Of a stretch of DNA of 64,000 bases, positions 38,102 to 61,888 are shown piece after piece. Origin of the DNA: a virus. The stretch's first letter is position 1. Every line of letters begins with the position of its first letter. Both the position numbers and the translations under genes were made by a program. The notes beneath the pieces were generated by a model. That model saw nothing but the letters and a program-made list of their open reading frames with translations, made no database searches and had not been told where the DNA came from. The DNA lies in the IMG/VR virus record IMGVR_UViG_3300034683_000192, positions 62,001-126,000 of that record, one strand, 5' to 3'.

Positions 38102-38191
38102 TGGCGGAAGGAGAGGGATTCGAACCCCCGGTAGGTTTCCCTACGTCGGTTTTCAAAACCGATGCAATTAGCCAGACTCTACCATCCTTCC
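38102..38191 (-). tRNA. tRNA-Ser (anticodon UGA)
   Basis: Seen on the minus strand: a 7-bp acceptor stem GGAAGGA/TCCTTCC, a discriminator G and an encoded CCA. The anticodon stem closes the loop TTTGAAA (anticodon TGA), and a long variable arm (GTAGG...CCTAC) is typical of serine tRNAs. It is the last RNA of the cluster in the direction of transcription and is directly followed by a GAGAGACAGG hairpin. Confidence 0.95.
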
Positions 38192-38202
38192 GTAAATTGC
38201 AT

Positions 38203-38586
38203 CTATTCGGGAGTGCGGAATCCGAGCTTGGAGAATCTCCGCAGATTGTTAATAATCCGCGTTACACCCGCGAGAAGTTCATGAATCAGTCGGACCTTGA
38301 AGACGTCAGCATCAGTAGGAGACGCTGCATATCTGATACGATCTGTGAACTGAAACCCATCGGTGCTTCTCCACAGAACACAACTAAAATCCGTCGTGTC
38401 CATGGTCAGTTCAACCCATACGGTCTGATCAGAGCTGATGGATACATCGAGCTGAAACCAATCCAGAGGATCATTGATATCGTGAATGTTCGCGCAGATC
38501 TCTTCGACGACAGTCTTCGCGATTGTGAACTGTTCTTCGCATGTGAGTTCCCGATGTCGTCCAACACTAGCGATGCTTGCGCACAT
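38203..38586 (-). CDS. Unknown protein inside the RNA cluster
   Basis: 127 residues between tmRNA and tRNA-Ser, AGGAG upstream of the ATG. The sequence is alpha/beta (helix CEEQFTIAKTVVEEICANI, then strands WFQLDVSISS and TVWVELTMD) and ends in a basic helix (LAGVTRIINNLRRFSKLGF). No family recognised. Its position suggests that it is co-transcribed with the RNAs and that processing of the RNAs releases it as mRNA. Confidence 0.72.
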   Translation of the reverse strand: MCASIASVGRHRELTCEEQFTIAKTVVEEICANIHDINDPLDWFQLDVSISSDQTVWVELTMDTTDFSCVLWRSTDGFQFTDRIRYAASPTDADVFKVRLIHELLAGVTRIINNLRRFSKLGFRTPE

Positions 38587-38614
38587 ATATCTTAATCTCC
38601 TGAAGTTGTAAAGT

Positions 38615-39010
38615 TGGTGGAGCCGGTGGGAATCGAACCCACGTCTTGAACTGGAATCAGAATTGCATCTACGTGTGTATCCTCAGTGTTTTCTGACCCG
38701 AGGCTTGGTCGCTCCTATTTTTCAAAGGTGGGGTACGGAGAACTCCTACCACCTAGGGTTGACAATTTAAATGCGATCACCACTCGCATCGATCCAGATA
38801 AGTTTCGCACTTCTTCTTTATCTGACGTCCAGAGAAGTACGTGCTCCTCTAGGGAGCAGTGGCTCTAGGCGGCGTTCGCGTAAGCGAAGTCGTCACGAGC
38901 GGGAGCAGCAAGAGCGTTGGCAGTTGCTTTCGTTGGGCTTTTTAACGCGGCCAGCCCACCGCGACACGCAGCAGTATCCTATCCAACTCAATCGAAACCA
39001 GGGCGGCCCC
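38615..39010 (-). ncRNA. ssrA: tmRNA (transfer-messenger RNA) with encoded tag peptide
   Basis: Seen: 5' end GGGGCCG pairs with 3' CGGCTCC for a 7-bp acceptor stem with a G-U at the third pair, the alanine identity element. Next to it are discriminator A and encoded CCA, and a T-arm GTGGGTTCGATTCCCAC. The 5' part has CTGGTTTCGATTG, as in tmRNA tRNA-like domains. A tag reading frame runs from a GCA codon (38925-38927) to TAG (38865-38867). It gives a peptide starting Ala-Thr-Ala-Asn (or Ala-Asn if the resume codon is the later GCC) and ending DDFAYANAA. Hydrophobic ...AA ends are the normal protease signal. Length about 396 nt, one piece. Established: tmRNA plus SmpB rescues stalled ribosomes and tags the peptide for degradation. 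No smpB is seen here, so the host protein would be used. Confidence 0.92.
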
Positions 39011-39019
39011 ACTTTAATT

Positions 39020-39095
39020 TGGCGCGCTCGAGAAGGGTCGAACTTCTGACCAAGAGTTTAGAAGACTCCTGCTCTATCCACTGAGCTACGAGCGC
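39020..39095 (-). tRNA. tRNA-Arg (anticodon UCU)
   Basis: Seen: acceptor stem GCGCTCG/CGAGCGC, anticodon stem GGAGT/ACTCT around loop CTTCTAA (anticodon TCT, reads AGA), T-arm with GTTCGAC and encoded CCA. It lies 10 bases upstream of tmRNA on the minus strand. AGA is rare in many hosts, so this may help phage translation. Confidence 0.93.
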
Positions 39096-39110
39096 ATGAA
39101 TTGTAAAATT

Positions 39111-39186
39111 TGGTCGGAACGACTGGATTTGAACCAGCGACCCCTGCTCCCAAAGCAGGTGCGCTGCCAGGCTGATCTACGTTCCG
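39111..39186 (-). tRNA. tRNA-Pro (anticodon UGG)
   Basis: Seen: acceptor stem CGGAACG/CGTTCCG, anticodon stem CCTGC/GCAGG around TTTGGGA (anticodon TGG), T-arm GGTTCAAATCC and encoded CCA. The C1-G72 pair is typical of bacterial proline tRNAs. Confidence 0.95.
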
Positions 39187-39203
39187 ATAAGGAGAAAGAA
39201 ATT

Positions 39204-39278
39204 TGGAGCGGGGTACGGGATTTGAACCCGCAACAGCTGGGGCGGAGACCCAGTATTCTACCTTTGAATTAACCCCGC
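39204..39278 (-). tRNA. tRNA-Gly (anticodon UCC) with unusual C33
   Basis: Seen: acceptor stem GCGGGGT/ACCCCGC, discriminator U with encoded CCA as in glycine tRNAs, anticodon stem CTGGG/CCCAG around TCTCCGC, T-arm GGGTTCAAATCCC. The loop gives anticodon TCC but has C instead of the near-universal U at position 33, and its D-arm (TTCAAAGGTAGAA) is short. It could be functional, degenerate or misread. Confidence 0.85.
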
Positions 39279-42894: not shown

Positions 42895-43329
42895 TTATAC
42901 TCTTACAAGATACGGTAATATTTCTCTTACTTCCATAAGCATTTTCCCTAGTTTATTGAGACCAAATCCAGTTTTGAGACATACTCCCCAGTACTTGTCA
43001 TTGTGCCAATTACCTTCTATGATTGTTCTATTTCCTGTAGCATAAAGTCTATCTGCCAGATAAGGATCAGAGAATTTAGCCATCAGACCGATCATCATAA
43101 TCCTATCTTTGTCTCTGTCGAAAGTAGGACGAATCGTAATAATTCGTCCTAATCGGCGTGCATCTTTTGGTGAGTCTGAATTTAGTATACGTTCAAAGTC
43201 TTCATCGTGAAGAGCTTTGTTTGCTTGATAAAAATGTTCGTTTGTTTTCCACCAAAACCCATGTATACACATTGGACTTTCGTAGAAATTACTTAAGAAT
43301 CGGTATTCTCCACGAAATTGTGAAATCAT
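42895..43329 (-). CDS. NADAR family protein (YbiA-like)
   Basis: 144 residues. Seen: FLSNFYESP, TNEHFYQANKA with the family's conserved Glu, and WHNDKYWGVCLKTGFGLNKLGKMLMEVRE, matching NADAR from end to end; length also fits (about 150). Established: NADAR proteins remove ADP-ribose from guanine in DNA or cleave related N-glycosides, and phage versions can counter DarT-type toxins. Its ATG overlaps the stop of the DUF4326 gene by 4 bases (ATGA), so the two are co-translated. Inference: anti-defence function against DNA ADP-ribosylation, or clean-up of ADP-ribose derivatives. Confidence 0.88.
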   Translation of the reverse strand: MISQFRGEYRFLSNFYESPMCIHGFWWKTNEHFYQANKALHDEDFERILNSDSPKDARRLGRIITIRPTFDRDKDRIMMIGLMAKFSDPYLADRLYATGNRTIIEGNWHNDKYWGVCLKTGFGLNKLGKMLMEVREILPYLVRV

Positions 43330-43811
43330 TCGAAATACAATGATTCATCGTACGTGAAGGAGTTACCACAACCAGAACAAAAGAAGGTTTCATTCATCAC
43401 TTCTTCTACTCCTGTAAGTACTTTTTGGTACGAATTATACCACTGTCCATCGATAGTCTGAAACACGGGATACGTGAACAATGCTCCTTTATGTTCAATT
43501 GGTAATCGACAACTTATGATCTTGGATAAACACTTCGGACATTCTACGAGATTTGCGTATCGTAGAAGTACATCACCGTGACATGCTTTTGGTGCACAGA
43601 AACATACGAGATCTTTTCCCCGGAGCTCATGCAGTGATGACATAAGCTCCGGGGTATTCAGAAGACGCAGTTCGTAAAGCTTCACGGAAGTTTCCCGATC
43701 CATGTCTAGACCGAGGGCAAAGGGATTTCCCCATTTCGTGGGACGTCCGATAAACACAGCATTCTTCGGGATTCCGTGAATATGCTTATTAAGAACCTGC
43801 GGTCTCCTCAT
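43326..43811 (-). CDS. DUF4326 protein with zinc-binding C-terminal domain
   Basis: 161 residues. Seen: N-terminal half with VFIGRPTKWGNPFALG and GKDLVCFCAPKACHGDVLL, the DUF4326 signature including its Cys/His cluster. The C-terminal half adds CPKCLSKI and CSGCGNSF, a likely zinc ribbon. Established: DUF4326 is often found beside or fused to NADAR and macrodomains and is thought to handle nucleotide or ADP-ribose derivatives. It overlaps its neighbours on both sides (4 bases with NADAR, 23 with the transglutaminase-like gene). Confidence 0.78.
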   Translation of the reverse strand: MRRPQVLNKHIHGIPKNAVFIGRPTKWGNPFALGLDMDRETSVKLYELRLLNTPELMSSLHELRGKDLVCFCAPKACHGDVLLRYANLVECPKCLSKIISCRLPIEHKGALFTYPVFQTIDGQWYNSYQKVLTGVEEVMNETFFCSGCGNSFTYDESLYFE

Positions 43812-45087: not shown

Positions 45088-48000
45088 TTATGCCAGAGAT
45101 TGTGGGAACTTGTACCCCTGTTCAGCAAAAGCCCGGACGAGTGCTTCTGCATACTGGGGACGGTAAGCATTCAACTTATCAAACACCACTGGGGTGATGT
45201 CAAGAAGTGCTTTTACCGTACTGATCCCGAGAGGCCGCAGAGCTGAGAGAACAGCGGCCTGACAACCACGAGAGGTACCATCTTTCTGCATGGTCTTTAC
45301 CTTGATATTGCACAAGGCAAAGAACTTCGCGAGGGTTCCATCGGGATTGGTTTCGTAGTACTTTTGAATGTGAGTCCATCCATCAGATTCGGAGTTGATC
45401 TCGATGTTAGACAGAGGGTTATCTGCCTTTTCCGCTTCCTGCAGTTCTTCGACCGCATTAGCAATAGCGTCGAGATCGACATCACTTGCAGTAGTAACCA
45501 CTTCAGGTTCTTGTTCCTTTGTGGATACATCCTCCGCAATGATGTGCGGTTCCTGAATCTTTTTGCTTTCAACGAATTTCTTCAGGAGATTGCGGATCTC
45601 AAAGAATCCATTCGTCGTTTCTTCTGGAATGAAGATTTCCATGAAACTGAGCATGCAGGACAGGAACCAGATTTTCACCGGGTAGTCCTTGATGGTCTGC
45701 ACGCAACGGGTGAACCACTCACCAGTCGTCACCGAGAATTCCGTACAACCACGTGCATTCGCTTCGAAAAGCGCAATCGCACAGAGCAGGTACTTCTCGT
45801 ATGCCGAGTATTCCCTATTACCGAAGTATTCGGGAACTCTGGTGGATATTTCAGGCCACACCGCATCGATGAGACCCACGAGTTTGCCAGCAGAAATGGA
45901 ACCATCGAGTTTCTCGAATTCTTCCATTGTGACAATATCGTAGAATGCCATCAGCGATGTACCAGTCTGAGAGACCGTCGATCGCTTCCCTGCGATGTGA
46001 AGATACATGAGGTAGTCGAGCTGCGGGAAGTAGTGACGGACACATCTGAGAGACACGTATCTGTATACTTCCGGATCATCGAACTTCCTACCGATCGAAC
46101 GTTTGAGGTCTTCGAGATCTCTGGCGATCGATGGGTACTGGATACTGAACTGAGTTATGGCAATCCCGATTCCTGAGAACCTCACAGGAGTAGGATTAAG
46201 CTTGACGCCCTTTTCAGCGAGACCAGTCAAGAAGGTTTCTTCCATTCCAGGAGTCGTCAGGGCTGGCTGAAGTTTCCGATCTTCTTCTTTGATGGAGACT
46301 CGTTCCGATTCGACCACTTCCCGAATGTCCTTCGGAAGGACTTGCGCATCGGGAAAAGTGTACTCGCGGATAAGCGTACCATCGTCATCAGTTCCCATGG
46401 TCAGATTTTCTTGTCCTTCCATGGGTTCAGGAATTTCGTCCTGATTGAGATCGCCAGAATAGTGCTCCTGTGTACCTGGATAATTCCGGCCAAGCGGTTC
46501 CCACGTGTATGTGGTTTCTGTCGTTGGAATTTCGACTTCCATTGTACTGGCAGCTTCTTCCTTGGACTCTTCTACCGATTCAGGAAGTCCCACTTCCGAC
46601 GATTTCGATAGGTGAGCCATGAGCTTGTTCTTTTGTGCATCCCACCAGTCGAGAATGAATTCAGCTTCGATCTGTTCGAATGCTTCATCAATCCACGTCT
46701 TCACCCAGTAGAACGTCTCATCATCAGAATGTTGACGTACCAGCTTCGCGATCAGACAGAACATCGCGATGAAGTACTTCTCATCCGGAGAGGTTTTACG
46801 AGTGTCGTCATGGAAGAACTCATGCATCTTGTCGCTCCCGAAATAGTGGGAGTTGGACATATCACGGAATACCGTGTGAACGAGCTTTGCGTACGTCTGA
46901 CCAAGGAATCCTTCATCAAGACTATGCCCTTCCTCGTGGAGGTACGTCATGATGTCGAATACCAAGAGTCGCAGATCCCCGAAAGAGGTCCCAGAGTAGA
47001 GAAGCAGCGCGATATAATCAAGATCACTCCGTTCGAAGTTTTCCGACTTATCACGAATGATTCCGTACATGATCGAGAGATCTGCTTTGAGTACGAAATT
47101 CGCGCGATGGAGCGCCGTGTATGCTGAAGGGATCTGCTTTACTGCGCGAGTCATCCGATCACGCTCTTCTGCGTATTCTCCTCGCGTACCGAGATAGATC
47201 TCGAAGTTCGGATCACTTCCTCTGAGCATGACGGAATTGTAACTACCGAGAACATAATCGTCCACGATGTGATGGAACCACCACCGGCAACCGGTTACCC
47301 AGAGACTGCAGGTCGAGCATTCGGGGATTGACGATATGCACGACTTCAGCCATGCGGTAACCTTCTGATGATACCCACTGAGCGCAGGATCGTTCGAATT
47401 CGAAGCTGCTTCCACCATGAGGTGGATCATCGCGAGCATGAACCGATGCTTGTGCGTGGTTTTCGAAAAAGATGTCAGCCTATCTGCCGGATTCGGTCCG
47501 ACCAGATCGACGTAGATTCCGAGATGACGGTAGAGCTCTTCCTGTCTGATGACGAACTGCGTGGTTGCGTTGTCAAACAAGTAACTGAAGAATTCTTCGG
47601 TAATCGTGAGATCATCGAGGAATTTCATGGTACGAGTAACGAGCCGAATGTACTCTACTTTTTCCTGAGGAGGATTGTATTTCCATGCGTATATGAGATA
47701 TCCGATTTCCCGCAGGTGATGATTCGGGGGATAGAATCCGATATCTCTGTGCATTTCACGCACATCGAACACGGTAGAGTTCACGAAATCCGCGAGATCG
47801 AGATATCCCTTACTCCGGAATCGTTCGATCGCATCTTCGCGGTAGCTTTCCCGCCGAGCTTCAATTTCTTCTTTGCTCGGGTCAGTCGACAGCACGTCCG
47901 ATGCGGGAAGAATTTCTTCTGGAGCGAGATCTGCTACCAGAGTAGCGCCAGTGTGGATGATGGGAATGATGAAGGTTTCCACCACATTTCTTCGCTCTCT

Positions 48001-49956
48001 GATTTTTCCCATCTGGAATTCGAGGATCATTTCGATAATGGCATCGAGAATGGTATCCTCCGAAACATCCGTACTGAGAGTACCTTCGGCTTCCGCTTTT
48101 TCGAGATCTTCTAGTTCCGCCAGGAATAGATCAGTGAACACTCGTTTGTCCGTACTGTGATAGTCGAACGCACGAGCGCTTGCTGGATATTTGTCGATCT
48201 TCAGCAGAGCAGTCATGATCTGCGCCCACAGATATCTCCGTTTATTCGTGGATGAGACGACGGAGTTGACCTTACTAACGTTGTACAGGTATTCAGTCAC
48301 ATCCTCCGTGATGAACTGCTGACAACAAATCAGACTTTCCAGCGAAATGCCTATCTCCCCGATTTCGATGATATTCGATGACGGATCATTGAAGAAACCG
48401 ATAAGTCGGTCGAAGTCCTCGCTCGTGTTGTCTTTTCCGTCAATAAGGTCACGTACCGTACGACTGAACACGCGTACTTTCGTATTCATGTCAATCGTAC
48501 ACGAGATTGCGATGATGTACGCACGAAGGACCACAGGCAGAATTTTGGAATCCCAGATCTCTTCGTGTAGTGACAACGACATAAGACCTGGAGCGATGTA
48601 CAGATTCGGAATATTCCATTTCTCACCGATATCGACTTTGCGAGTCTCAAGAAGATACTGTTCAGTCCTCCTGATTTCATCGATGAGTTCTTTCACTGTA
48701 CCACAGGACAGCATCCGCCCGAAGCAGCGCTCGATCCTCGCCTTGTCGTAGTCAGTGTCCTCTACGAAATGTTCACCAAAGAAATGCGATTCGAGTGTCT
48801 TCACTGTCGCGAATTTTGTGGAATCATTCCTTCCCCAGACAGTAGAAATGGCGTATATCCACCAAGTCACGATTGGGATCTGCTGGATATTTCCATACCC
48901 GAATTTCGGGATTGTCTTCAGTTCGAGAGGCCGATCTTTCGGAAGAAATTCGTTCAGCTCCTCGATATTGTGGCAGATGATCCGGTGCATTTCTACGAGC
49001 CGATCGACCAGCAGGCTACCACCGAGCTCACGATACTTGTCGTAGAAGTTGTGACCAAGATCGAAAAACTCATTTGTGAGCCACTGTTGATTGCGTATAC
49101 CGAGTCTTCCGGTATTGTATTCAAGGTATGCGCATATCACGAAAAATGCAATAACGTCAAGAATACCTGAATCGTCGATCTTCAGGAATTCTGCAAGTTT
49201 TGCATTTTCTTGACGATTGGTCAGCATCAGTTTCTTCATTTCTTCGGTGACGAATCCGAAACTGACCAAATCATCGTACACCTGAGATGTGGTATCGGGA
49301 GTCGTGGTTTCCGTAAGCACTTCTTCCGCTTTCTTGATGAGACGAAGTACTTTGCGCGGCTTGTTCGCATCGCTCATCGCACTTTTCAGAGATTCGCCTG
49401 CAGAAAAGATCAATTGTCCTGCCGAAGGAGTCTCTTCCTTGGAAATCGGTTCAGATGATCCAGTCAACTCTTTACGGAGTTTGGCATCCGTTTCGGTTCT
49501 GATCGTGCAGATGAGATCCAGAAGATCGTCACGAGTATCGGTAGCCATACTCTTGGCGATTCTGAATCCCACAGATTCTTCAGGGAACAGTTTCTGGAAG
49601 AGTTGGAAATTCGGATTGAATAGATTCGTCAGACCAGCGAAGATCCACGGATCTGCCGGGATGAATCCAGGTATGATGTTACCGATCATGACCTGATGCA
49701 TGCATCCGTATTTTTCCGAAGGAAAGAATGCGAGACCGCATGCGAATGTACCGACACTGGTATCGTCGATGACGTTGGGCATCAGAGGGCACCAGATGAC
49801 ACTGTTATTAGGCATGATCTCTTTCGGACCCACACCTCTACACAGTTCCTCTGCGATGATCTCGGCACCATATTCCGCCGTACTAAAGAACCTGGACAGC
49901 AGATCTTTTTCGATGAGTTCAAGAACATCGTTGATGCTGAACGTATTTTCACTCAT
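45088..49956 (-). CDS. Giant unknown protein
   Basis: 1622 residues from the ATG at 49956, which has GGAGG upstream; an in-frame GTG at 50031 is a possible alternative and the frame stays open further into the gene before. The sequence is predominantly helical and acidic, with no signal peptide, membrane span or known catalytic motif seen. A Ser/Glu/Thr-rich linker around residues 1180-1260 separates a large N-terminal part from a C-terminal part. The last 60 residues (SRGCQAAVLSALRPLGISTVKALLDITPVVFDKLNAYRPQY) may be a small helical domain. Proteins of this size in jumbo phages are often virion or injected proteins; this is a guess. It is followed by a perfect 32-base palindrome. Confidence 0.78.
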   Translation of the reverse strand: MSENTFSINDVLELIEKDLLSRFFSTAEYGAEIIAEELCRGVGPKEIMPNNSVIWCPLMPNVIDDTSVGTFACGLAFFPSEKYGCMHQVMIGNIIPGFIPADPWIFAGLTNLFNPNFQLFQKLFPEESVGFRIAKSMATDTRDDLLDLICTIRTETDAKLRKELTGSSEPISKEETPSAGQLIFSAGESLKSAMSDANKPRKVLRLIKKAEEVLTETTTPDTTSQVYDDLVSFGFVTEEMKKLMLTNRQENAKLAEFLKIDDSGILDVIAFFVICAYLEYNTGRLGIRNQQWLTNEFFDLGHNFYDKYRELGGSLLVDRLVEMHRIICHNIEELNEFLPKDRPLELKTIPKFGYGNIQQIPIVTWWIYAISTVWGRNDSTKFATVKTLESHFFGEHFVEDTDYDKARIERCFGRMLSCGTVKELIDEIRRTEQYLLETRKVDIGEKWNIPNLYIAPGLMSLSLHEEIWDSKILPVVLRAYIIAISCTIDMNTKVRVFSRTVRDLIDGKDNTSEDFDRLIGFFNDPSSNIIEIGEIGISLESLICCQQFITEDVTEYLYNVSKVNSVVSSTNKRRYLWAQIMTALLKIDKYPASARAFDYHSTDKRVFTDLFLAELEDLEKAEAEGTLSTDVSEDTILDAIIEMILEFQMGKIRERRNVVETFIIPIIHTGATLVADLAPEEILPASDVLSTDPSKEEIEARRESYREDAIERFRSKGYLDLADFVNSTVFDVREMHRDIGFYPPNHHLREIGYLIYAWKYNPPQEKVEYIRLVTRTMKFLDDLTITEEFFSYLFDNATTQFVIRQEELYRHLGIYVDLVGPNPADRLTSFSKTTHKHRFMLAMIHLMVEAASNSNDPALSGYHQKVTAWLKSCISSIPECSTCSLWVTGCRWWFHHIVDDYVLGSYNSVMLRGSDPNFEIYLGTRGEYAEERDRMTRAVKQIPSAYTALHRANFVLKADLSIMYGIIRDKSENFERSDLDYIALLLYSGTSFGDLRLLVFDIMTYLHEEGHSLDEGFLGQTYAKLVHTVFRDMSNSHYFGSDKMHEFFHDDTRKTSPDEKYFIAMFCLIAKLVRQHSDDETFYWVKTWIDEAFEQIEAEFILDWWDAQKNKLMAHLSKSSEVGLPESVEESKEEAASTMEVEIPTTETTYTWEPLGRNYPGTQEHYSGDLNQDEIPEPMEGQENLTMGTDDDGTLIREYTFPDAQVLPKDIREVVESERVSIKEEDRKLQPALTTPGMEETFLTGLAEKGVKLNPTPVRFSGIGIAITQFSIQYPSIARDLEDLKRSIGRKFDDPEVYRYVSLRCVRHYFPQLDYLMYLHIAGKRSTVSQTGTSLMAFYDIVTMEEFEKLDGSISAGKLVGLIDAVWPEISTRVPEYFGNREYSAYEKYLLCAIALFEANARGCTEFSVTTGEWFTRCVQTIKDYPVKIWFLSCMLSFMEIFIPEETTNGFFEIRNLLKKFVESKKIQEPHIIAEDVSTKEQEPEVVTTASDVDLDAIANAVEELQEAEKADNPLSNIEINSESDGWTHIQKYYETNPDGTLAKFFALCNIKVKTMQKDGTSRGCQAAVLSALRPLGISTVKALLDITPVVFDKLNAYRPQYAEALVRAFAEQGYKFPQSLA

Positions 49957-50041
49957 GGGTTTCCATCCTCCACAGATGTAGTTGAGCTTAGTGTATACGT
50001 ATGTCGTGATGATGTCATTCCTGACATGCACACGAATCTTC

Positions 50042-50335
50042 TCACCGGTCGTCGTCAGATTCGATGCAGTAACTGTCTTCTTCTTCACGCTCGCAGACGA
50101 TGTACCCTGATCCTTCAAGTACACCAATCATCGCTTCGTAATTCAGAATCCCATCAGCATCTTCTGAATCGTAGGTGATGATGAGTACTGACGTAGATCC
50201 CGAAGTGGTTTCACCTGAGTCATCATCAGTGCTACCAGGAAATACGTAAGTATCTTCGACGCCATCTTTGGTCACAAAGATGACAATCGGATAAGTCTGT
50301 TCAATTTTTTCCTGAAACAAAAGCATATCGAACAT
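50042..50335 (-). CDS. Small acidic protein
   Basis: 97 residues, AAGGAG before the ATG. Seen: an N-terminal strand-rich part (TYPIVIFVTKDGVEDTYVFPG), a Ser/Thr/Asp-rich loop, then SVLIITYDSEDADG and a very acidic end (CEREEEDSYCIESDDD). Such acidic small phage proteins may mimic nucleic acid or inhibit host enzymes; nothing specific supports that. It precedes the giant gene. Confidence 0.72.
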   Translation of the reverse strand: MFDMLLFQEKIEQTYPIVIFVTKDGVEDTYVFPGSTDDDSGETTSGSTSVLIITYDSEDADGILNYEAMIGVLEGSGYIVCEREEEDSYCIESDDDR

Positions 50336-51679: not shown

Positions 51680-54600
51680 CTATTCTTCAGTGTCGATTCC
51701 TGGAATCTTGATCTTGTCGGCGATGCTCTCGTAGGTATTGCGCATGGTCGATTCCTGCGCTTTACCCTTATTCCATCTGGACACTGGAGTATAGAACCCG
51801 ACGACTCTGGAGTAAGTCTCAGCACCACAGCCACATTTCGGGCAAGCATCAACTTTTCCAGGAAGATATCCATGTGATGCACACACAGAATAATCCGGAG
51901 AAATCGTGATGTACGGAATGTGGTAATTCGTGCAAAGCTTCTTGACCAAGTTCTTTACGACATTGTGATCTTTGATCGCTTCACCAAGAAGAACATGAAG
52001 TACTGTACCACCAGTGTAAATGGTCTGCAGACCATCCTGATGTTCAAATACTTCGATGATGTCGTCACTGTAATCGACAGGTACCTGAGTCGAGTTGGTG
52101 TAAAACGGCTCGGCACCGAGAATCTTGGAAGAAGCTGTGATGATGTCAGGATACTTCTTCGAGTTCAGTTTGGCAAGACGATAGCAGACACCTTCAGCTG
52201 GAGTTGCTTCCAGGTTGTAAAGGTATCCTGTTTCCTGCTTGAACTGATCACATTTGTCACGCATGAACCGAAGAACCTTCTCAGCAAATGCTTTGCCTCT
52301 TTCGGTAGTGATCGGTTCACCGAAGAGATTGAGGCATGCTTCATTACCACCGACGAGGCCGATCGTCGAGAAGTGATTGTGGAAGTATTCTCCATGTCTT
52401 GCAAAAGAGTCCTGAAGGTATACCTTCGAGAACGGGTAAAGACCAAGCTTTGTCTGCTGTTCGACGAAAGTCCGCTTGTCTTCGAGAAGTTCCTTCGCGA
52501 TATGCATGTACTTGTCAAGGTATTCGAAGAACTTGGATTCATCGCCCTTGGCAAGATATGCGAACAGCGGAAGGTTCTGAGTAACCACCCCAACGGAACC
52601 AGTCATGGGGTTGGCATTGAAGATACCACCACTTCTCTGACGCAGTTCGTTGTTGTCAAGCTGAAGATGGCAGTTATGCGTGACCATACCACCTTCTTTG
52701 AGCTCGAAGAGATGGTCATCGGATCCGACGGAGATGCAGTACGCGTAAGGTGCGGTTTTCTTCTGCTTCTCGATTTTCGTGATCGGAACCATGATGAACT
52801 CACCATGTACGAATGCACCCTTGGGGAGAGTGGAGAGATCTCTTCCAGTAATGCTGTACGGAACGAAAGCACCCACTTCGAGAGTATCCGCACTATACGT
52901 GCGCATATCTGTAAGCTCATGTTTTCCTTCCGTGTTCTTCTTGAGATACATTCGAGGTTGTTGATGGTTGTTCTCGAATGTAACTCCATCTGGATCATAC
53001 GCTGTCTTTACGGTAACAAATCCGTCAGGAGAAACCGCAACGACCCCAGTGACAGGAATTTCTTTTCCATTCAATCTGACGTAGTAGCCATCACCATTCA
53101 CGTAATGTCCATCAGGATCGCATCTATTTATCAGGTGATGATGAATCGAACTGATATCCATGATCAGCCAATTACCATTCATCTTGATGGAGATCTTCTC
53201 GTCAGGATGAAGCGGACACATGGATCTGATATCTTCAGGATTGAGATCTGAGTTCACGAAGTTCGTGAAATAGGGAGCACCGTATTTTGCTGCAAGCATC
53301 CACAGTGCATCGAGATTTTCGTTATCCCAGTTGAACTCTTTGGTGATGTTGTAGTTCGGAATTGGGAAAGAGAACTGGCGACCGGATGCATCTCCCTTGA
53401 GCATGACTTCACAGAATGCTCGGTTGAACATATCCATTTCTTCCTGAAAATCCCCGTAGGTATCGGAATCATGGAATTGTCCACCATGAATCACAGGTTC
53501 ATTCTTCATGTACGAAGGAACCGTAAGATCCATTGAAACATTCGTGAAGGGGCAATTTCCGGTAATGAAAGGAACACCGTTTTCTGCCTTGCAAATAAAC
53601 GTACCGGTATCAGTAGTCGGGCACCAGACCACCCCATCAAAATCAACGACATCGGACGTCACTGACGCATGTGACTTTTTGTACACAGTCACAGTGTCAG
53701 TACACGACAGCTGACGATTTCTCTTTGATCCGTATCCTGACAGCACGAGTAGAGACTGAATACACTCCGCCATGTAATCATTTTTCTTACCGATACGAAT
53801 ACGACCATTTGGCTCAATGTGCCCATCTGCATGAATCATCGTTTCGAGAAGAATTTCAATCTGTTCCACCGAAGCGTGGTTGATGAAATCCAAGGGAATG
53901 GCTTCTCGGTTTCCGCCAGTGTATTCCAAGATTTTCTTGGCGTAATCTCCCTTCACATCGAACCGATATACTTCATCGCCGTATCCACCACCGCCAGCGG
54001 TATTTGCGTACCAGTCCGCATCCAGACGAATGAGAAGATTTGCGACTTCGTGTGCATATTTTTTCGGTGACTGGTAGATACGAAGTCTGCTGCTGCGAAG
54101 ATCCATATGGCAGTCAGTAAGTGCCCATCCAAGCAGTCGGATTTCGTCGTTGGTCATGTCAACACCACGACGATTTACACGACCGGCAAGAGGGATATCG
54201 ATCGGTGTACGATACTTCTGATAAATATCTCCAGAAGTTTCGATTACGTAACTCGACGAGTTGAATTTACGTCGAATTGTGCGGTGATCGGGTGTGGTAA
54301 GAATATTCAATTTTCTTCCATGGAAATTGATCATCTTTCCACTGTAATCATAAACATTGACTCGCGTCAGTACATCAAGACGAATTTCTCCGGTATCTTT
54401 ATCGAACACGTAGATCGGATCTCCGATTCGAAGTTCGTCATGACTTTTCCACCCTTCTGGAGTAAGACAGGTGTACGTGTCAGGTACGCACTGGAAGCCT
54501 ACTCTGGTCTTAGTCGTCATGTTGTGGAAGAATTGCTGAAGCTTCTGCTTCACTTCTTTATACGTCAGACCATCATAACGAATGAATGGTGCGAGATAGG

Positions 54601-55294
54601 TATCGAAGTTACTGAATGCCTGAGCACCAGCTGCTTCACCTTGCATGGTAAAGAGGAAGTTCCAGCACTGGCCGAGAGCCACATCGAAATGCTTCGCAGG
54701 TCCAGCATCATTGGCGCCTTCGACACCACCGAAACCTACGAGAAGCACCTGCTTGATGTCCCACCCACAGCAGTAGGGAGCAAGCAGATTGAGATCGTGA
54801 ATATGCAAGAAACCATCGACGTGAGCAGCTCTGGCATCAGGAGAATAAATTTCGTTCAGCCAGTAGAGAGACATCGCCTTAGCGGCAACGTAATGATTGA
54901 GTCCCTGCAGGGAATACCCCATATTGGAGTTTTCCTTGATAGACCATTCTTCCTTACCAAGGTATTCCTTGACAAGGTTGATGAGTGCTGAATCGGAAAG
55001 ATTACGTACATCTTCACGATGCTGACGATAGATGATGTACTTTTTTGCTGTACCGTAATGTCGTGCGTACATGAGCGCACGTTCGACGAAATTCTGGATA
55101 TCTTCGATGGTAATGACATTCGACGAATCGAACTCATTCTGTATGTCATACAGAACAAGGTCAGTGATCTTGACTGCGTCCACTGATTCACCAGACGAAG
55201 CAGCTGCTTTCGAAATGGCGATTTCGATCTTCTTACGATCGAACGGTACTGCAGTCTTTCCGTCGCGTTTCATCACAGTCGTCGGCTGAAGCAT
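51680..55294 (-). CDS. nrdD: Anaerobic (class III) ribonucleotide reductase with two inteins
   Basis: 1204 residues as translated from the ATG at 55294; removal of two inteins (312 and 182 residues) leaves 710, the usual length (E. coli 712). Seen: ATP-cone at the N-terminus (VMKRDGKTAVPFDRKKIEIAI); catalytic domain (YCCGWDIKQVL, CPFTNVSMDLT, NNELRQRSGGIFNANPMTGSVGVV); C-terminal zinc site (VCASHGYLPGKVDACPKCGC); glycyl radical loop RVVGFYTPVSRWNKGKAQE with the radical Gly at about 1166. Established: it reduces ribonucleoside triphosphates under anaerobic conditions after activation by NrdG (28437-29153). A TTTCTTTTTTGTT element lies upstream. Confidence 0.95.
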   Translation of the reverse strand: MLQPTTVMKRDGKTAVPFDRKKIEIAISKAAASSGESVDAVKITDLVLYDIQNEFDSSNVITIEDIQNFVERALMYARHYGTAKKYIIYRQHREDVRNLSDSALINLVKEYLGKEEWSIKENSNMGYSLQGLNHYVAAKAMSLYWLNEIYSPDARAAHVDGFLHIHDLNLLAPYCCGWDIKQVLLVGFGGVEGANDAGPAKHFDVALGQCWNFLFTMQGEAAGAQAFSNFDTYLAPFIRYDGLTYKEVKQKLQQFFHNMTTKTRVGFQCVPDTYTCLTPEGWKSHDELRIGDPIYVFDKDTGEIRLDVLTRVNVYDYSGKMINFHGRKLNILTTPDHRTIRRKFNSSSYVIETSGDIYQKYRTPIDIPLAGRVNRRGVDMTNDEIRLLGWALTDCHMDLRSSRLRIYQSPKKYAHEVANLLIRLDADWYANTAGGGGYGDEVYRFDVKGDYAKKILEYTGGNREAIPLDFINHASVEQIEILLETMIHADGHIEPNGRIRIGKKNDYMAECIQSLLVLSGYGSKRNRQLSCTDTVTVYKKSHASVTSDVVDFDGVVWCPTTDTGTFICKAENGVPFITGNCPFTNVSMDLTVPSYMKNEPVIHGGQFHDSDTYGDFQEEMDMFNRAFCEVMLKGDASGRQFSFPIPNYNITKEFNWDNENLDALWMLAAKYGAPYFTNFVNSDLNPEDIRSMCPLHPDEKISIKMNGNWLIMDISSIHHHLINRCDPDGHYVNGDGYYVRLNGKEIPVTGVVAVSPDGFVTVKTAYDPDGVTFENNHQQPRMYLKKNTEGKHELTDMRTYSADTLEVGAFVPYSITGRDLSTLPKGAFVHGEFIMVPITKIEKQKKTAPYAYCISVGSDDHLFELKEGGMVTHNCHLQLDNNELRQRSGGIFNANPMTGSVGVVTQNLPLFAYLAKGDESKFFEYLDKYMHIAKELLEDKRTFVEQQTKLGLYPFSKVYLQDSFARHGEYFHNHFSTIGLVGGNEACLNLFGEPITTERGKAFAEKVLRFMRDKCDQFKQETGYLYNLEATPAEGVCYRLAKLNSKKYPDIITASSKILGAEPFYTNSTQVPVDYSDDIIEVFEHQDGLQTIYTGGTVLHVLLGEAIKDHNVVKNLVKKLCTNYHIPYITISPDYSVCASHGYLPGKVDACPKCGCGAETYSRVVGFYTPVSRWNKGKAQESTMRNTYESIADKIKIPGIDTEE
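52673..53218 (-). mobile_element. Intein 2 in NrdD, mini-intein without endonuclease
   Basis: 182 residues inserted next to the conserved active-site segment RSM-C-HLQLDNNELR. Seen: it starts CPLHPDEKISIKMNG, includes VKTAYDPDGVTFENNHQQPRMYLKK, and ends GGMVTHN directly before the native Cys. The terminal His-Asn and +1 Cys needed for splicing are present. No LAGLIDADG or HNH motif is seen, so it can no longer home by itself. It interrupts the most conserved part of the enzyme, the usual intein strategy. Confidence 0.88.
53555..54490 (-). mobile_element. Intein 1 in NrdD, with LAGLIDADG-type endonuclease
   Basis: 312 residues. Seen: it starts at a Cys (CVPDTYTCLTPEGWKSHDELRIGD), has a block with ILTTPDHRTIRRK, two LAGLIDADG-like helices (LLGWALTDCHMDL and LLETMIHADGHI), and ends at FITGN just before a native Cys (CPFTNVS). 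The endonuclease motifs are partly degenerate, so cutting activity is uncertain, while splicing residues (Cys1, terminal Asn, +1 Cys) are intact; the penultimate residue is Gly instead of the usual His. Confidence 0.9.
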
Positions 55295-55385
55295 GAGTAA
55301 GTCTCCATGAATGTTGGTATGGGAGATAAGTGGCAGATGGAACATAGCATACCTTGTTAAGTAGGAAGATAAAATCGAAGTCAGA

Positions 55386-57282: not shown

Positions 57283-58557
57283 TTAATGTCGCATATTGAG
57301 ATCGTCGATCAGTGAATCAATACAGTAAATATCTCTTCGTGTTTGATCACATACCGACGGATCCAGATAATTGTTCTCAGTGTAATACTTGTGACCAAGC
57401 ATATCCGGAGTGGGTACATCCGATGCAAACTGTTTGAATACGAATGACCGAAGTGAGAAGTATGACTTCTTCAGATCTTCTGGGTAAATAGTTCGTCCTT
57501 TGTCATAGCTCATCGAGATCAGAGTTTCGACAAAGTATCTATTGTTCAAATGCCCAGGACCCATAATAGCACTCCAGCCACTGGCGAATGCCATGTTCAT
57601 TGGATACTTTCGAGCAATATCTTTACATGCATCCTCCGCTATACCTGATCCAGTCAAACGGTACAACGTCGCAGCATTGAAGAAGTTACTGTGCGCTGTA
57701 AACCAAGATACAAGATACACTCGTCCAAGAAAGATCGAAAGATCTCCTGGACTAGTGATGAGTAGCGGGAAGTAACATACCAGAAGTACTCGGTAGAACC
57801 AAAGGTATTTCTTTTCCCATGTGATTTCATATCCTAGTCTGAACCATGTAAGAAGTCGAATTACATCTGGTCCAAGTCCAAACCAACGATAGAGATACCC
57901 CCGATCATCGTCAGCTTTGACTCTACCTAATTCACATGCAGCGTTTCCGAAATGAAGGAGATGTCCTTTGTTTCCATGTCTATCGGTACGACGAAATGTA
58001 GTCTGTTCGAAAAGATTGACTAGCTTCGCCAGATCGGATTTGGTTAGTTCTACAGAAGGATGATCGTTACGTATCACTTCTGTGAGCCATGCCATTAGAC
58101 CAACAACCATATCACCAGAGAAATTCACAGTAGTGTATCTATCTGGATGATTGTTTGGATATCTGCCGATATATCCATCATCACCTACATACGACAGAAG
58201 TAGTCTGTGTAGTCGATATATGTAGTTTTCTATATCTGGTGGGACAATCTTGGATGTACCTAATGCGCCCATCTTCTTTTGTGTCGAAAAATATCGAATA
58301 AGTGACGATGCGTAAAGTCCGAGCCACTTAAACGAATCTCCATCGTCAGTCAGTTTGAGAAAATCGTAGTTATAGATCCTGTGATTGAATTCTGAATTCT
58401 TCTGGAGTTTAAATCCATACGTTTTAGCTGAACGCATCAGCGAATAAGTGATGGATGGAAACCACAGACACCGACTCACGACAGATATCACTACCTTCAC
58501 AGGTTGAAGCAAAATGATATCTATCATGAAGAACAGAATGAGTAATACGTAATTCAT
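57283..58557 (-). CDS. Large membrane-associated protein of unknown function
   Basis: 424 residues. Seen: N-terminal membrane span (YVLLILFFMIDIILLQPVKVVISVV), a further hydrophobic stretch near 255-270 (FYRVLLVCYFPLLITSPGDL), and helical parts with a GDDGYIGRYPNNHPDR loop followed by GLMAWLTEV. Alternating helices with Gly/Tyr-rich loops recall alpha/alpha-toroid enzymes such as six-hairpin glycosidases, but catalytic residues cannot be assigned. It lies 19 bases after the SLOG gene stop and is probably in its operon. Function unknown. Confidence 0.72.
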   Translation of the reverse strand: MNYVLLILFFMIDIILLQPVKVVISVVSRCLWFPSITYSLMRSAKTYGFKLQKNSEFNHRIYNYDFLKLTDDGDSFKWLGLYASSLIRYFSTQKKMGALGTSKIVPPDIENYIYRLHRLLLSYVGDDGYIGRYPNNHPDRYTTVNFSGDMVVGLMAWLTEVIRNDHPSVELTKSDLAKLVNLFEQTTFRRTDRHGNKGHLLHFGNAACELGRVKADDDRGYLYRWFGLGPDVIRLLTWFRLGYEITWEKKYLWFYRVLLVCYFPLLITSPGDLSIFLGRVYLVSWFTAHSNFFNAATLYRLTGSGIAEDACKDIARKYPMNMAFASGWSAIMGPGHLNNRYFVETLISMSYDKGRTIYPEDLKKSYFSLRSFVFKQFASDVPTPDMLGHKYYTENNYLDPSVCDQTRRDIYCIDSLIDDLNMRH

Positions 58558-58576: not shown

Positions 58577-59122
58577 TTAGTCGGATATGCGGACCGCCCC
58601 CGGCCTCATAGGATCGATGTAGTAAATTCGAACATTTTTTCGTTCAGCGTACTGAAGACATGCGTATGTTCCTCCAGTATTCTTACCATCGATGTGTACT
58701 GCAATTACGAAGGATGAATTATTTACCATCCACGCATTACGTGCGTGCATTTTCCATGCTGCATATGGATCAGGATTTACGTCAACTATGTCATCAGCAG
58801 CTTCACACAACTGATGAAATTTTTTCTGAATATGTGGAGGCCACTTGATGTGCTGTGAAGGAAATGGTCGAGCAATGATCGACTTGATATCAGAAAAAGT
58901 TTCACGTATATCGTGTACTTCTTCTGCTGCCCACTGATCCACACCCAATGCTCCACCAGTAATGAAGGTTCTGATGTTGTAGGTATGGTACATGGTAAGG
59001 ATAGCAGTTCTCAAAAGTTCTTTGATGTTGAACTCAACGTCTCGTTCAGTGAAACCGAGCTCCTGAAGAGCAGCTGGGCGATGTCCAGTAAAACAGACTG
59101 AGTATTCTGGGTCAATATGCAT
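58577..59122 (-). CDS. SLOG-family protein (DUF1273/YpsA-like)
   Basis: 181 residues. Seen: CFTGHRPAAL at the N-terminus, the SLOG/DUF1273 signature; TFITGGALGVDQWAAEEV, the nucleotide-binding Gly loop plus helix; IARPFPSQHIKW; and NTGGTYACLQYAERKNVRIYYIDP. Length fits the family. Established: SLOG domains bind nucleotide derivatives and occur in immune signalling (TIR or CBASS-related) and in DprA. It starts 3 bases after the macrodomain stop, so the two are co-translated. Inference: sensing or sequestration of an ADP-ribose or NAD-derived molecule. Confidence 0.85.
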   Translation of the reverse strand: MHIDPEYSVCFTGHRPAALQELGFTERDVEFNIKELLRTAILTMYHTYNIRTFITGGALGVDQWAAEEVHDIRETFSDIKSIIARPFPSQHIKWPPHIQKKFHQLCEAADDIVDVNPDPYAAWKMHARNAWMVNNSSFVIAVHIDGKNTGGTYACLQYAERKNVRIYYIDPMRPGAVRISD

Positions 59123-59125
59123 CTC

Positions 59126-59572
59126 TTACTCCAAGAGGTAAACATGGTTACAGGCATCTTTCAAATGCCTGATAATTTCTCGTCTAACTACATTCCAATC
59201 CAATCCACCATATCCACACCCTAGCTTGGGAATGGCGATAGAATGTATCTCTCTAGATACTATTTCTTCTCTGAGAGCTATTAAACCTTTGGTTATGTAG
59301 GACACATCAGAAGGATCTTTCCAATGAAGTTTCGTTGGAAAGTTAATGATAAAATTCGGAGTTTGTTTAGTAGAAGTAATGAACACATACATAATTCCAG
59401 GACGTAAGGTATTATTCATGCAGGCCTTAGCATATTCACGAAACATCTCAGGATATTTCAATCGAAATTGTCTAGCTAATCCGGCGCCCATTACTCCGAC
59501 ACAATTTACGGGATTGACAATTGCGTCGGTTTTCATGGTAAAGATATCTTGAGAAATTAAGCTATGGAACAT
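59126..59572 (-). CDS. DarG/TARG1-like macrodomain protein
   Basis: 148 residues from the ATG at 59572 (GGAGG upstream). Seen: AIVNPVNCVGVMGAGLARQF, the macrodomain phosphate loop; INFPTKLHWKD with Lys81 at the place of the catalytic Lys of DarG/TARG1; and IPKLGCGYGGLDW. Established: DarG-type macrodomains remove ADP-ribose from thymidine in DNA modified by DarT toxins. Inference: a second, independent anti-ADP-ribosylation factor besides NADAR. A role in processing other ADP-ribose metabolites is an alternative. Confidence 0.86.
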   Translation of the reverse strand: MFHSLISQDIFTMKTDAIVNPVNCVGVMGAGLARQFRLKYPEMFREYAKACMNNTLRPGIMYVFITSTKQTPNFIINFPTKLHWKDPSDVSYITKGLIALREEIVSREIHSIAIPKLGCGYGGLDWNVVRREIIRHLKDACNHVYLLE

Positions 59573-59607
59573 GGTTTGCCTCCGACATGACATAGGGATA
59601 CATTGTA

Positions 59608-59637
59608 AGAGGGGACATCCTTTCGGATGTCCCCTCT
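59608..59637 (-). terminator. 13-bp hairpin, GAAA loop
   Basis: AGAGGGGACATCC arms after adhesin copy 2. Confidence 0.8.
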
Positions 59638-59646
59638 ACGATTCTA

Positions 59647-60699
59647 CTACATTTGAACAATATTGACGGTACCATTTCCACCTTTACCACCGGCGACATT
59701 TCCCGTACCACCATTTCCGCCATTGGCAACGATCTTGGAAATATCGTTGATACTTCCCTTGTGGAAGATATGAATGGCTCCGCCACCAGATCCACCACCA
59801 CCGACTTTATGTGTCCCACCAGAACCATTACCACCAGCAACACCATTGGCTTCAATTGCTCCGGCAGGTCCTATGATGATATCACCATCGACAAAAAGGA
59901 TCATCAACCCTCCGGTACCAGTTCCTCCAGCAGTACCACCAGTACCACTTACGAGAATCTTTCCGTGTGTTCCACCAGGATTCCCAGCACCTCCCCCTGC
60001 AGTTCTTCCGTATCTACCACCATCAGTATCTTTGGCTACGCCATTCCCACCTTTTCCACCGTCAACTGCACCATCTTGTGCAGATCCTGAGTTACCATAG
60101 AGGTTCACTCCACCACCACCAGTGCCGCCGGAAAATGATGTACCTGCGTTCCCGCGACCAGCATTACCAGATCCTCCACCACCAGTAGTTCTTCCACCAG
60201 AGCCACCACCGCCACAGGCACCATTTACACCAATGTTTCCATTGGCACGCGATGAGTTTGCAGGGTATGCGGAAATAGCTCCACCAGTAGGACCAATGAA
60301 GGGGATATTTTCTGGAGTAAAGATATCACTACTGTGGAAATAGACTACTTTGTTTTCGTGATCTATTCCTACGAATTTTCCAGGAACATTGGCACCCCTC
60401 GCAGACATCGAAAGGCGACCATTCACAGTCAGATTTCCTCTGATGTGAATGTATAACCCCATACATCTGTTCGAGGGTCTCACGAGATGACCAGCATTGA
60501 CAGTAAAATCGTCAAATGTAAGAAGAACTGGATCTCCATCAAGAATGGATGCAAATTCGTCAGTAGTAGTGACACCAGTAGAAACGAAATTACCTGCCGA
60601 TTCTGGAAAACTTAATGCACGTTCGGCAGGAAGAAGAGGCTCTGCGTATTTTTTACGCAACTTATATCCGGCGTCTGTAAGTTCAATAGCTATCGGCAT
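59647..60699 (-). CDS. Glycine-rich adhesin-type protein, copy 2
   Basis: 350 residues, GGAGA before the ATG. Seen: an N-terminal domain with FPESAGNFVSTGVTTTDEF, TVNAGHLVRPSNRC and GNLTVNGRLSMSARGANVPGKFVGI, nearly the same as copies 1 and 3. Then a variable Gly-rich region with runs such as ACGGGGSGG and GGAGNPGG, then GGGSGGGAIHIFHKGS and the end GTVNIVQM. Inference: receptor-binding tail component with a polyglycine-helix fold. The middle differs from the other copies while both ends are kept, as expected if domain swapping changes host range. Confidence 0.7.
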   Translation of the reverse strand: MPIAIELTDAGYKLRKKYAEPLLPAERALSFPESAGNFVSTGVTTTDEFASILDGDPVLLTFDDFTVNAGHLVRPSNRCMGLYIHIRGNLTVNGRLSMSARGANVPGKFVGIDHENKVVYFHSSDIFTPENIPFIGPTGGAISAYPANSSRANGNIGVNGACGGGGSGGRTTGGGGSGNAGRGNAGTSFSGGTGGGGVNLYGNSGSAQDGAVDGGKGGNGVAKDTDGGRYGRTAGGGAGNPGGTHGKILVSGTGGTAGGTGTGGLMILFVDGDIIIGPAGAIEANGVAGGNGSGGTHKVGGGGSGGGAIHIFHKGSINDISKIVANGGNGGTGNVAGGKGGNGTVNIVQM

Positions 60700-60775: not shown

Positions 60776-61888
60776 CTATATTTGTACTATATTGACAGAT
60801 CCATTCCCACCTTTACCTCCAATCGAAGGGGCAGATGGCGATGTTCCACCATTTCCACCAATTGCTTTAATCTTTGTCGGATCATTGATTGTACCTTTAT
60901 GGAAGATGTGAATTGATCCACCTCCGGAGCCTCCTCCACCAGGACCATTATGACTGGTTCCAGTAGGACGACCAGCTCCACCAGCAGATCCATTGGAGTT
61001 GATTTCTCCTGAAGCTCCAAAAATAATCTTTCCACCAACAATAAGGACAATCAGCCCACCTGTACCAGTCTCACCGGGAGCACACAATCCAGGTCTAGCG
61101 GTAGCTCCACCGGGATTCCCTGCACCACCAGGAGCAGATGTCAGTGTTATTCCGAGTGATGTTGCAGGGTTGTATACAAATTTACCATCTCCACCCTTAC
61201 CAGCATTTTCTCCAGCATTTTCACAGATGGCCGATGCTTCATAACCAGTCGCACCACCACTCCCAGATCCACCAGAGAAAGAGGTACCTGCACCGCCATT
61301 ACCAGATTTTGCATATGCTGCAGTATATCCGGTACGGTTGGGAACACTTGCCATCGCACCACCCGATCCACCACCACCAGAACATCTGGATTTGATTCCG
61401 CCAGCAATACCCAATGCATATGCATTTCCTGCGGTAGGACGTGATGCAGCAACTCCTACCGCACCTACTCCACCTACGGCAGGAATGACATATACTTCGG
61501 GAACTGCGCTATATTTGTCTTGATCAGTGAATGCAAAAAATTTGTTAGCAGGATCAATATTCACGAACTTACCCGGAGCATTCGCTCCTCTGGAGGTCAT
61601 AGTCAATAGACCATTGATGGTAAGATCACCTTCGATGTAAATAAACATTCCTTTGCATCGATTTTTGGGTCGAACAATATGACCAGCATTGATGGTCATA
61701 TTTTTGAAAGAAAGAACAACTGGATCTCCATCTACAGTAGATTCAAATTCATCTGTGGTAGTAACTCCGGATGAAATAAAATCTTCAGTAGGAATGGAAA
61801 ATTTGAATCCAGGATCTGCGATCAATTCGCCAGCATATCTTGCCTGTAATGCACTACCAGCATTAGGAAGTTCAATCGCTAAGGGCAT
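60776..61888 (-). CDS. Glycine-rich adhesin-type protein, copy 3
   Basis: 370 residues, GGAGA before the ATG, in tandem with copy 2. Seen: SSGVTTTDEFESTVDGDPVV, TINAGHIVRPKNRCKGMF and TINGLLTMTSRGANAPGKFVNI, a Gly-rich centre of different composition (more Ala and Ser, e.g. GGAGTSFSGGSGSGG), then GGGSGGGSIHIFHKGT and the end GSVNIVQI. Closest to copy 1 in the NRCKGMF and NIVQI parts. A T-rich TTTATTTTTTGT element and a hairpin precede it. Same inferred role. Confidence 0.7.
   Translation of the reverse strand: MPLAIELPNAGSALQARYAGELIADPGFKFSIPTEDFISSGVTTTDEFESTVDGDPVVLSFKNMTINAGHIVRPKNRCKGMFIYIEGDLTINGLLTMTSRGANAPGKFVNIDPANKFFAFTDQDKYSAVPEVYVIPAVGGVGAVGVAASRPTAGNAYALGIAGGIKSRCSGGGGSGGAMASVPNRTGYTAAYAKSGNGGAGTSFSGGSGSGGATGYEASAICENAGENAGKGGDGKFVYNPATSLGITLTSAPGGAGNPGGATARPGLCAPGETGTGGLIVLIVGGKIIFGASGEINSNGSAGGAGRPTGTSHNGPGGGGSGGGSIHIFHKGTINDPTKIKAIGGNGGTSPSAPSIGGKGGNGSVNIVQI

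Follow-up and report, generated by a model that had tools for sequence, protein, structure and literature searches.

A large bacterial virus carries a macrodomain gene and a SLOG gene separated by only three bases, and the question raised by this locus is whether the two proteins work together and, if so, on what. The window analyzed comprises 64,000 nucleotides, corresponding to bases 62001-126000 of a 199,880-base source record. The earlier note had described a macrodomain with an NFPTK motif ending at Lys81, a DUF1273-type SLOG gene following after 3 bases and a NADAR gene in the same phage. All three were found again, and the E-values of the domain matches exclude chance for the macrodomain, SLOG and NADAR domains. 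We give about an even chance to the reading that the macrodomain/SLOG pair works as a unit within a phage set for clearing ADP-ribose, together with DUF4326 and NADAR proteins, that acts in counter-defence; the substrates, the SLOG ligand and the role are what we infer here, whereas the domains, the catalytic residues, the missing DarT-binding domain and the recurrent linkage and fusion in other elements are observed. The features are collected in Table 1.

Table 1. Coordinates of the features in the window, with the evidence for their assignment.
Feature	Position	Strand	Description	Basis
Macrodomain gene	59126-59572	-	148 aa, DarG-type (ALC1/TARG1-class), stand-alone	Pfam Macro, PADLOC/NCBIfam DarG, PDB alignment
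SLOG gene	58577-59122	-	181 aa, YpsA-type (DUF1273)	Pfam YpsA, AlphaFold, Foldseek
Gap, macrodomain stop to SLOG ATG	59123-59125	-	exactly 3 bases	
Hairpin	59608-59637	no strand	perfect 13-bp stem, GAAA loop	sequence
NADAR gene	42895-43329	-	144 aa, YbiA-type	Pfam E 1.8e-25; NCBIfam TIGR02464, above its cut-off
DUF4326 gene	43326-43811	-	161 aa	Pfam E 2.4e-21
Protein, function unassigned	57283-58557	-	424 aa	lies 19 bases downstream of the SLOG gene
Glycine-rich proteins (two, in tandem)	59647-60699, 60776-61888	-	similar to each other	
Anaerobic ribonucleotide reductase NRDD	51680-55345	-	1221 aa	matched in three stretches
Open reading frame	45088-50127	-	1679 aa	
tRNA/tmRNA cluster	38102-39278	-	tRNA-Ser, tmRNA, tRNA-Arg, -Pro, -Gly	

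The longest open reading frame of the macrodomain spans 59126-59593 and contains an inner ATG at 59572, which is likely the start because it is located 6 bases after a GGAGG (tcGGAGGcaaaccATG); this start agrees with the coordinates and the Lys81 numbering of the earlier note. The protein was matched by Pfam Macro (E 1.3e-18) and by the DarG models of PADLOC (E 5e-58) and NCBIfam (E 3e-58); both DarG models match the macrodomain portion only, and the NCBIfam score of 198 is below the full-length cut-off of 250. The top PDB sequence matches were DarG macrodomains (5M3I, E 2.8e-36; 5M31, E 1e-28). In the alignment to these structures N23, which lies within residues 20-33 (NPVNCVGVMGAGLA), K81, H83, W84 and G120 correspond to N22, K80, H82, W83 and G119 of TaqDarG, and the position of TaqDarG K29 is taken by A30. 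Mutation of N22, K80 or G119 harms the activity of TaqDarG, whose macrodomain alone is a sufficient antitoxin and gives no rescue when K80 is replaced by alanine (PMC5179494). Among 98 aligned viral macrodomains, the catalytic asparagine was present in 97 and the lysine in 88. The description of the domain as DarG-like in the earlier note is supported. The best-supported prediction from the sequence is that the macrodomain is an ADP-ribose eraser with DarG chemistry. DNA is a known substrate of DarG-type macrodomains, and other ADP-ribose (ADPr) bonds are also acted on by macrodomains of the ALC1/TARG1 class. The substrate is most likely thymidine-ADPr in single-stranded DNA (ssDNA), and de-ADP-ribosylation of DNA is a reasonable reading.

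The possibility that the macrodomain belongs to a DarTG toxin-antitoxin system was considered and rejected. The protein ends 13 aa past the aligned domain and lacks the C-terminal DarT-binding domain, which in DarG comprises about 200 aa beyond the macrodomain, and no match to DarT was identified across the 199,880-base record, which may be incomplete. Together these absences indicate a stand-alone eraser and not a toxin-antitoxin pair. Viruses commonly carry DarG-type macrodomains as stand-alone proteins: a C-terminal extension of at least 120 aa is present in 31 of the 83 viral relatives and absent in 52. In a tree of 81 rows, in which many forks are unresolved, the window macrodomain is placed beside the stand-alone macrodomains L098, L099 and L121 with moderate support (88/85). 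Direct searches with the macrodomain returned six close viral relatives, none of which had a SLOG gene nearby.

The SLOG protein was matched by Pfam YpsA (E 1.2e-24) and has kept the TGHRP motif, the GxD signature (G60, D62), R128 and the GGT motif. The residues R15, G56, G60, D62, R128, G151 and T152 are invariant in an alignment of 47 relatives, which indicates that the pocket is not degenerate. When the AlphaFold model (pLDDT 94.8) was compared with known structures by Foldseek, YpsA of B. subtilis (2NX2) was found with a TM-score of 0.80, followed by DprA proteins with scores up to about 0.6. The SLOG domain of ThsA with 3'cADPR (7UXS) was found at rank 16 with a TM-score of 0.47, 10% identity and an E-value of 1.4e-3, a likeness at the level of the fold. 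Since YpsA and then DprA match better than ThsA, the fold does not single out a cyclic ADP-ribose sensor. The window SLOG is a member of the YpsA family and not of the DprA family, and no close viral relative was obtained by direct searches with it.

These matches bear on what the SLOG protein might bind. The earlier note had proposed a sponge for the immune signal, and a reading along this line is that the SLOG protein soaks up or senses Thoeris-type cyclic ADP-ribose signals, that the macrodomain breaks down or binds these soluble signals too, and that DNA is not the target. In Iyer et al. (2022; PMC9503650), phage Macro, NADAR and SLOG proteins are seen as mainly aimed at soluble ADPr derivatives, and in ThsA proteins 3'cADPR is a ligand of the SLOG domains and ADPR/IAD of the macro domains (PMC11204291). 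The ThsA structure at rank 16 fits this reading as well, but its likeness to the window SLOG is weak compared with that of YpsA and DprA, and the known DNA substrate of DarG-type macrodomains also argues against it; we consider it unlikely. The sponge itself received no specific support beyond the fold likeness to ThsA, and a DprA-like DNA-binding role or an enzymatic role would fit equally well.

Alternatively, the SLOG protein could be a DprA-like ssDNA binder that brings the macrodomain and NADAR to ssDNA, the site of action of DarT-type enzymes, in which case the genes would encode a targeted unit for the repair of ADP-ribosylated DNA. The DprA structures follow directly after YpsA among the fold matches, and a fused protein would tether the eraser to a DNA binder. 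A suggestive context was found in Agricanviruses, where genes for a UvsX/RecA-like recombinase and a DNA-binding protein precede the macrodomain and NADAR-SLOG genes; in phiEco32-like phages the SLOG gene is followed by dNMP kinase and exonuclease genes. However, the membership in the YpsA family argues against this, the TGHR motif is also compatible with a pyrophosphate ligand, and ThsA showed no DNA binding (PMC7272460). This reading is regarded as quite improbable. The SLOG protein may have one of three roles: binding or cleavage of a soluble ADPr signal, as in Iyer et al., delivery to ssDNA or an unrelated nucleotide role. We know of no demonstration of DNA binding by YpsA.

The SLOG ribosome-binding site, GGAG, is located within the 3' end of the macrodomain gene. 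Directly upstream of the pair, in the interval that follows the preceding glycine-rich gene, a hairpin is found which is absent from the terminator listing; because it lacks a T-run, it is graded only as a possible transcript boundary. The two glycine-rich proteins, whose genes lie one after the other upstream, gave no family match and are probably duplicated surface or tail proteins. On the other side, the gene for the 424-aa protein is possibly co-transcribed with SLOG. This protein carries a hydrophobic N-terminal stretch and gave no Pfam or PHROG match; its only homologue (27% identity) is encoded by Desulfovibrio (D. vulgaris) phage 7757, which is a weak hint at the host group. None of the macrodomain, SLOG, NADAR and DUF4326 families was found within 6 kb of this homologue, and the 424-aa protein was therefore rejected as a member of the module.

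Elsewhere, the phage encodes a multisubunit RNA polymerase subunit and a tail-fibre protein akin to those of phiKZ-type jumbo phages. In the anaerobic ribonucleotide reductase, insertions following '...RVGFQCVPDTYTCLTPEG' and '...SMCPLHPDEKISIKMNG' look like one or two inteins. The tmRNA of the RNA gene cluster encodes the tag ANALAAPARDDFAYANAA, and the 1679-aa open reading frame gave no NCBIfam or Pfam match.

About 15 kb from the macrodomain/SLOG block, the same record holds a second block, in which the NADAR gene shares 4 bases (ATGA) with the DUF4326 gene. The latter, missing from the earlier note, encodes the fourth member of a proposed network: in large phages, Macro, NADAR, SLOG and DUF4326 proteins occur together, form gene clusters and are fused to one another, and they were proposed to act against host ADPr signals, with a Macro domain in 56% and a SLOG domain in 31% of jumbo phages (Iyer et al., 2022; PMC9503650). 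The record contains all four families, in two tight pairs.

The claim of two separate ADP-ribose-removing candidates holds, and the literature assigns them different bonds, thymidine-ADPr for the macrodomain and guanosine-ADPr for NADAR. The NADAR protein gp30.3 of T4 removes guanosine-ADPr in vitro, thymidine-ADPr is not reversed by NADARs (PMC11125620), and guanosine-ADPr on RNA could not be removed by the macrodomain and ARH enzymes tested (PMC11833690). If the window proteins act accordingly, they would cover both known DarTG chemistries. However, NADAR activity does not guarantee counter-defence, because gp30.3 failed to protect cells against DarT1 (PMC11125620). AdfB, the known anti-DarT factor, acts by antitoxin mimicry, likely via direct interaction (PMC11481870).

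A housekeeping or metabolic role was also considered: the macrodomain and NADAR might clear what the NAD+ or RNA-repair chemistry of the phage itself leaves behind, and the SLOG protein could be a nucleotide hydrolase or a YpsA-like modulator of host cell division. For Macro and NADAR proteins, Appr1p and related products are known or predicted substrates (PMC9503650). Overexpression of B. subtilis YpsA leads to a division block, and its GxD/E signature is important for the formation of foci, which is thought to reflect ligand binding (PMC6459960). However, neither a sirtuin, KptA/Tpt1 nor a Nudix protein was found in the 200-kb record, which is possibly incomplete, and G42, E44 and W45 of YpsA, required for the division block, are not kept in the aligned window SLOG. 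A YpsA-like division block, a phage-encoded sirtuin or KptA as source of the substrate and a Nudix protein as further step were rejected on these grounds, and the housekeeping role as a whole appears quite improbable. The search for ADPrib_exo_Tox was uninformative, as no control was matched.

Linkage among the four families was counted in 46 viral records chosen for a YpsA-type SLOG, with a distance of 10 kb. Of the 16 records with a DUF4326 gene, 14 had it within this distance of SLOG (2.4 expected); for NADAR the count was 12 of 20 (3.6 expected), and none of 100,000 simulations reached either value. For macrodomains detected by Pfam, linkage was found in 2 of 13 records, with 1.4 expected. 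Any partner within 6 kb was observed for 22 of 80 viral SLOG loci and for 1 of 80 bacterial loci (Fisher P 1e-6). The P values of these linkages are too small because many of the loci are relatives of one another: a single 60%-identity cluster accounts for 12 of the 22 linked loci, and 8 of 26 clusters are linked. Seen from the macrodomain side the linkage is weak, as only 5 of 82 viral loci with a DarG-type macrodomain have SLOG, NADAR or DUF4326 nearby. The HQxNC-type macrodomains of the jumbo-phage loci L043-L080, which were detected mainly by iterative HMM searches and are largely below the Pfam cut-off, sit with NADAR and SLOG; they belong to a different class and were not counted as DarG-type. 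No other phage was found to have a YpsA-type SLOG 3 bases behind a DarG-type macrodomain, either among the viral loci compared or with a chimeric Macro+SLOG query, for which no phage reached the threshold of 80% coverage of both parts.

Several other elements do combine these domains. On a 261-kb phage contig (L147, 5245-7781, + strand), genes for DUF4326, a DarG-type macrodomain, NADAR and a DprA-family SLOG are located within 2.5 kb; several ORFs of this contig share a short peptide (MKLHCAMMNTWRF) at their starts, which points to a DNA element that is repeated between the genes. Phages similar to phiEco32, including the BASEL phages Bas90 and Bas91, have the gene order Macro, sigma factor, SLOG. 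Erwinia phage pEa_SNUABM_37 encodes, although not annotated as such, a single 429-aa Macro-NADAR-SLOG polypeptide (L265:2001-3290, + strand), which consists of a DarG-type macrodomain (Pfam 6.5e-11), a middle domain matching phrog_652 and a C-terminal YAcAr SLOG, and full-length relatives were found on four IMG/VR contigs (L268-L271). T4 gp30.3 is also included in phrog_652, and the assignment of the middle domain as NADAR rests on this profile because BLASTP of gp30.3 against the middle domains of these fusions gave weak matches. In related Agricanviruses, e.g., Erwinia phage RAY, a Macro gene is followed by a gene for a NADAR-SLOG protein.

The chimeric query led to two further fusions. Proteus phage 10 encodes a 276-aa Macro-SLOG protein, of which the YAcAr score of 24.3 is below the Pfam cut-off of 28.2 and the phrog_289 match has an E-value of 2e-23. 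The Allocoleopsis plasmid pMIC7113.01 encodes a 506-aa DUF4326-Macro-YpsA fusion (L257:5566-7086, + strand), with 21.6 bits for Macro compared to a cut-off of 22. On this cyanobacterial conjugative plasmid the fusion adjoins genes for an ATP-binding protein, a CU044_2847-family protein and a serine protease, a neighbourhood that looks like a conflict-system locus.

With respect to INDEPENDENCE, the SLOG domains of the phage fusions are of the YAcAr/DUF2493 type, whereas the window SLOG is of the YpsA type, and the window macrodomain falls outside a supported clade (99/89) that unites those of RAY, SNUABM_37, Proteus phage 10 and Bas91. Because the SLOG types differ and the macrodomain clades are separate, DarG-type macrodomains and SLOG proteins have apparently come together on more than one occasion, with a seemingly independent pairing in the window. 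Such repeated joining argues for a shared function. The fusions and separate pairings give the coupling to SLOG described in the earlier note stronger support than that note could know, and the macrodomain and SLOG proteins probably function as a unit that counters ADP-ribose-based defences of bacteria.

In the clearing set proposed at the outset, the macrodomain, lacking a toxin partner, would strip ADP-ribose off thymidine in ssDNA via the DarG lysine mechanism and perhaps also clear other 1''-linked acceptors, and NADAR would take guanosine-linked ADP-ribose. The TGHR/GxD pocket of the SLOG protein would hold a ligand containing ADP-ribose or an adenine nucleotide, and the protein may share a substrate or product with the macrodomain and thereby serve in ligand or product handling. 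The set could then permit phage replication in hosts whose anti-phage defence relies on DNA ADP-ribosylation (DarTG1/DarTG2-like) or on ADP-ribose signals. A more elaborate version, in which the macrodomain, NADAR and SLOG proteins form a physical eraser complex with two chemistries, SLOG binds ssDNA or the freed ADP-ribose, thymidine- and guanosine-linked ADP-ribose are thereby cleared jointly and DUF4326 ends the breakdown of the product, would amount to a dedicated phage machine for the repair of ADP-ribosylated DNA; the parts form one polypeptide in some phages and are encoded by separate genes in the window, and such a complex seems doubtful. A layered shield against NAD/ADP-ribose defences, as proposed in the earlier note, is plausible and is already a published prediction (PMC9503650). 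If the clearing set exists, phages can reverse DNA ADP-ribosylation with a set of several parts, and the retention of macrodomains, NADAR and SLOG proteins in so many large phages would be explained. The value of the locus is that it is a clear, testable instance of the predicted network. Since close analogues of the pair are present in Bas90, Bas91 and phiEco32, which are easily handled E. coli phages, the published prediction is directly testable.

Compared with known systems, the window macrodomain shares the fold and the catalytic asparagine, lysine and glycine with DarG of T. aquaticus and M. tuberculosis (5M31, 5M3I), but differs from DarG of DarTG in the missing C-terminal domain and in having SLOG as partner and no adjoining DarT. 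The SLOG protein shares the fold and the GxD/E signature with B. subtilis YpsA, which unlike the window protein is chromosomal and gpsB-linked and has the division-block residues. The pairing of a DarG-type macrodomain with SLOG is common to the phiEco32-like phages, where the two are two genes apart; these are, however, small 77-kb podoviruses with a YAcAr-type SLOG and an intervening sigma factor gene. The Agricanvirus genes and the fusions of pEa_SNUABM_37 and Proteus phage 10 likewise link a DarG-type macrodomain to SLOG (and NADAR), with the different SLOG type and macrodomain clade described above. In the neighbourhoods of Iyer et al. (2022), the four families of the window likewise share one large-phage genome, and both the idea of clustering and fusion and the counter-defence proposal are the same. 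Here one block directly joins SLOG and a DarG-type macrodomain and another, 15 kb away, DUF4326 and NADAR, an arrangement which may already be contained in Fig. 5h of that article. The locus belongs to the network already predicted there, with an arrangement of its own.
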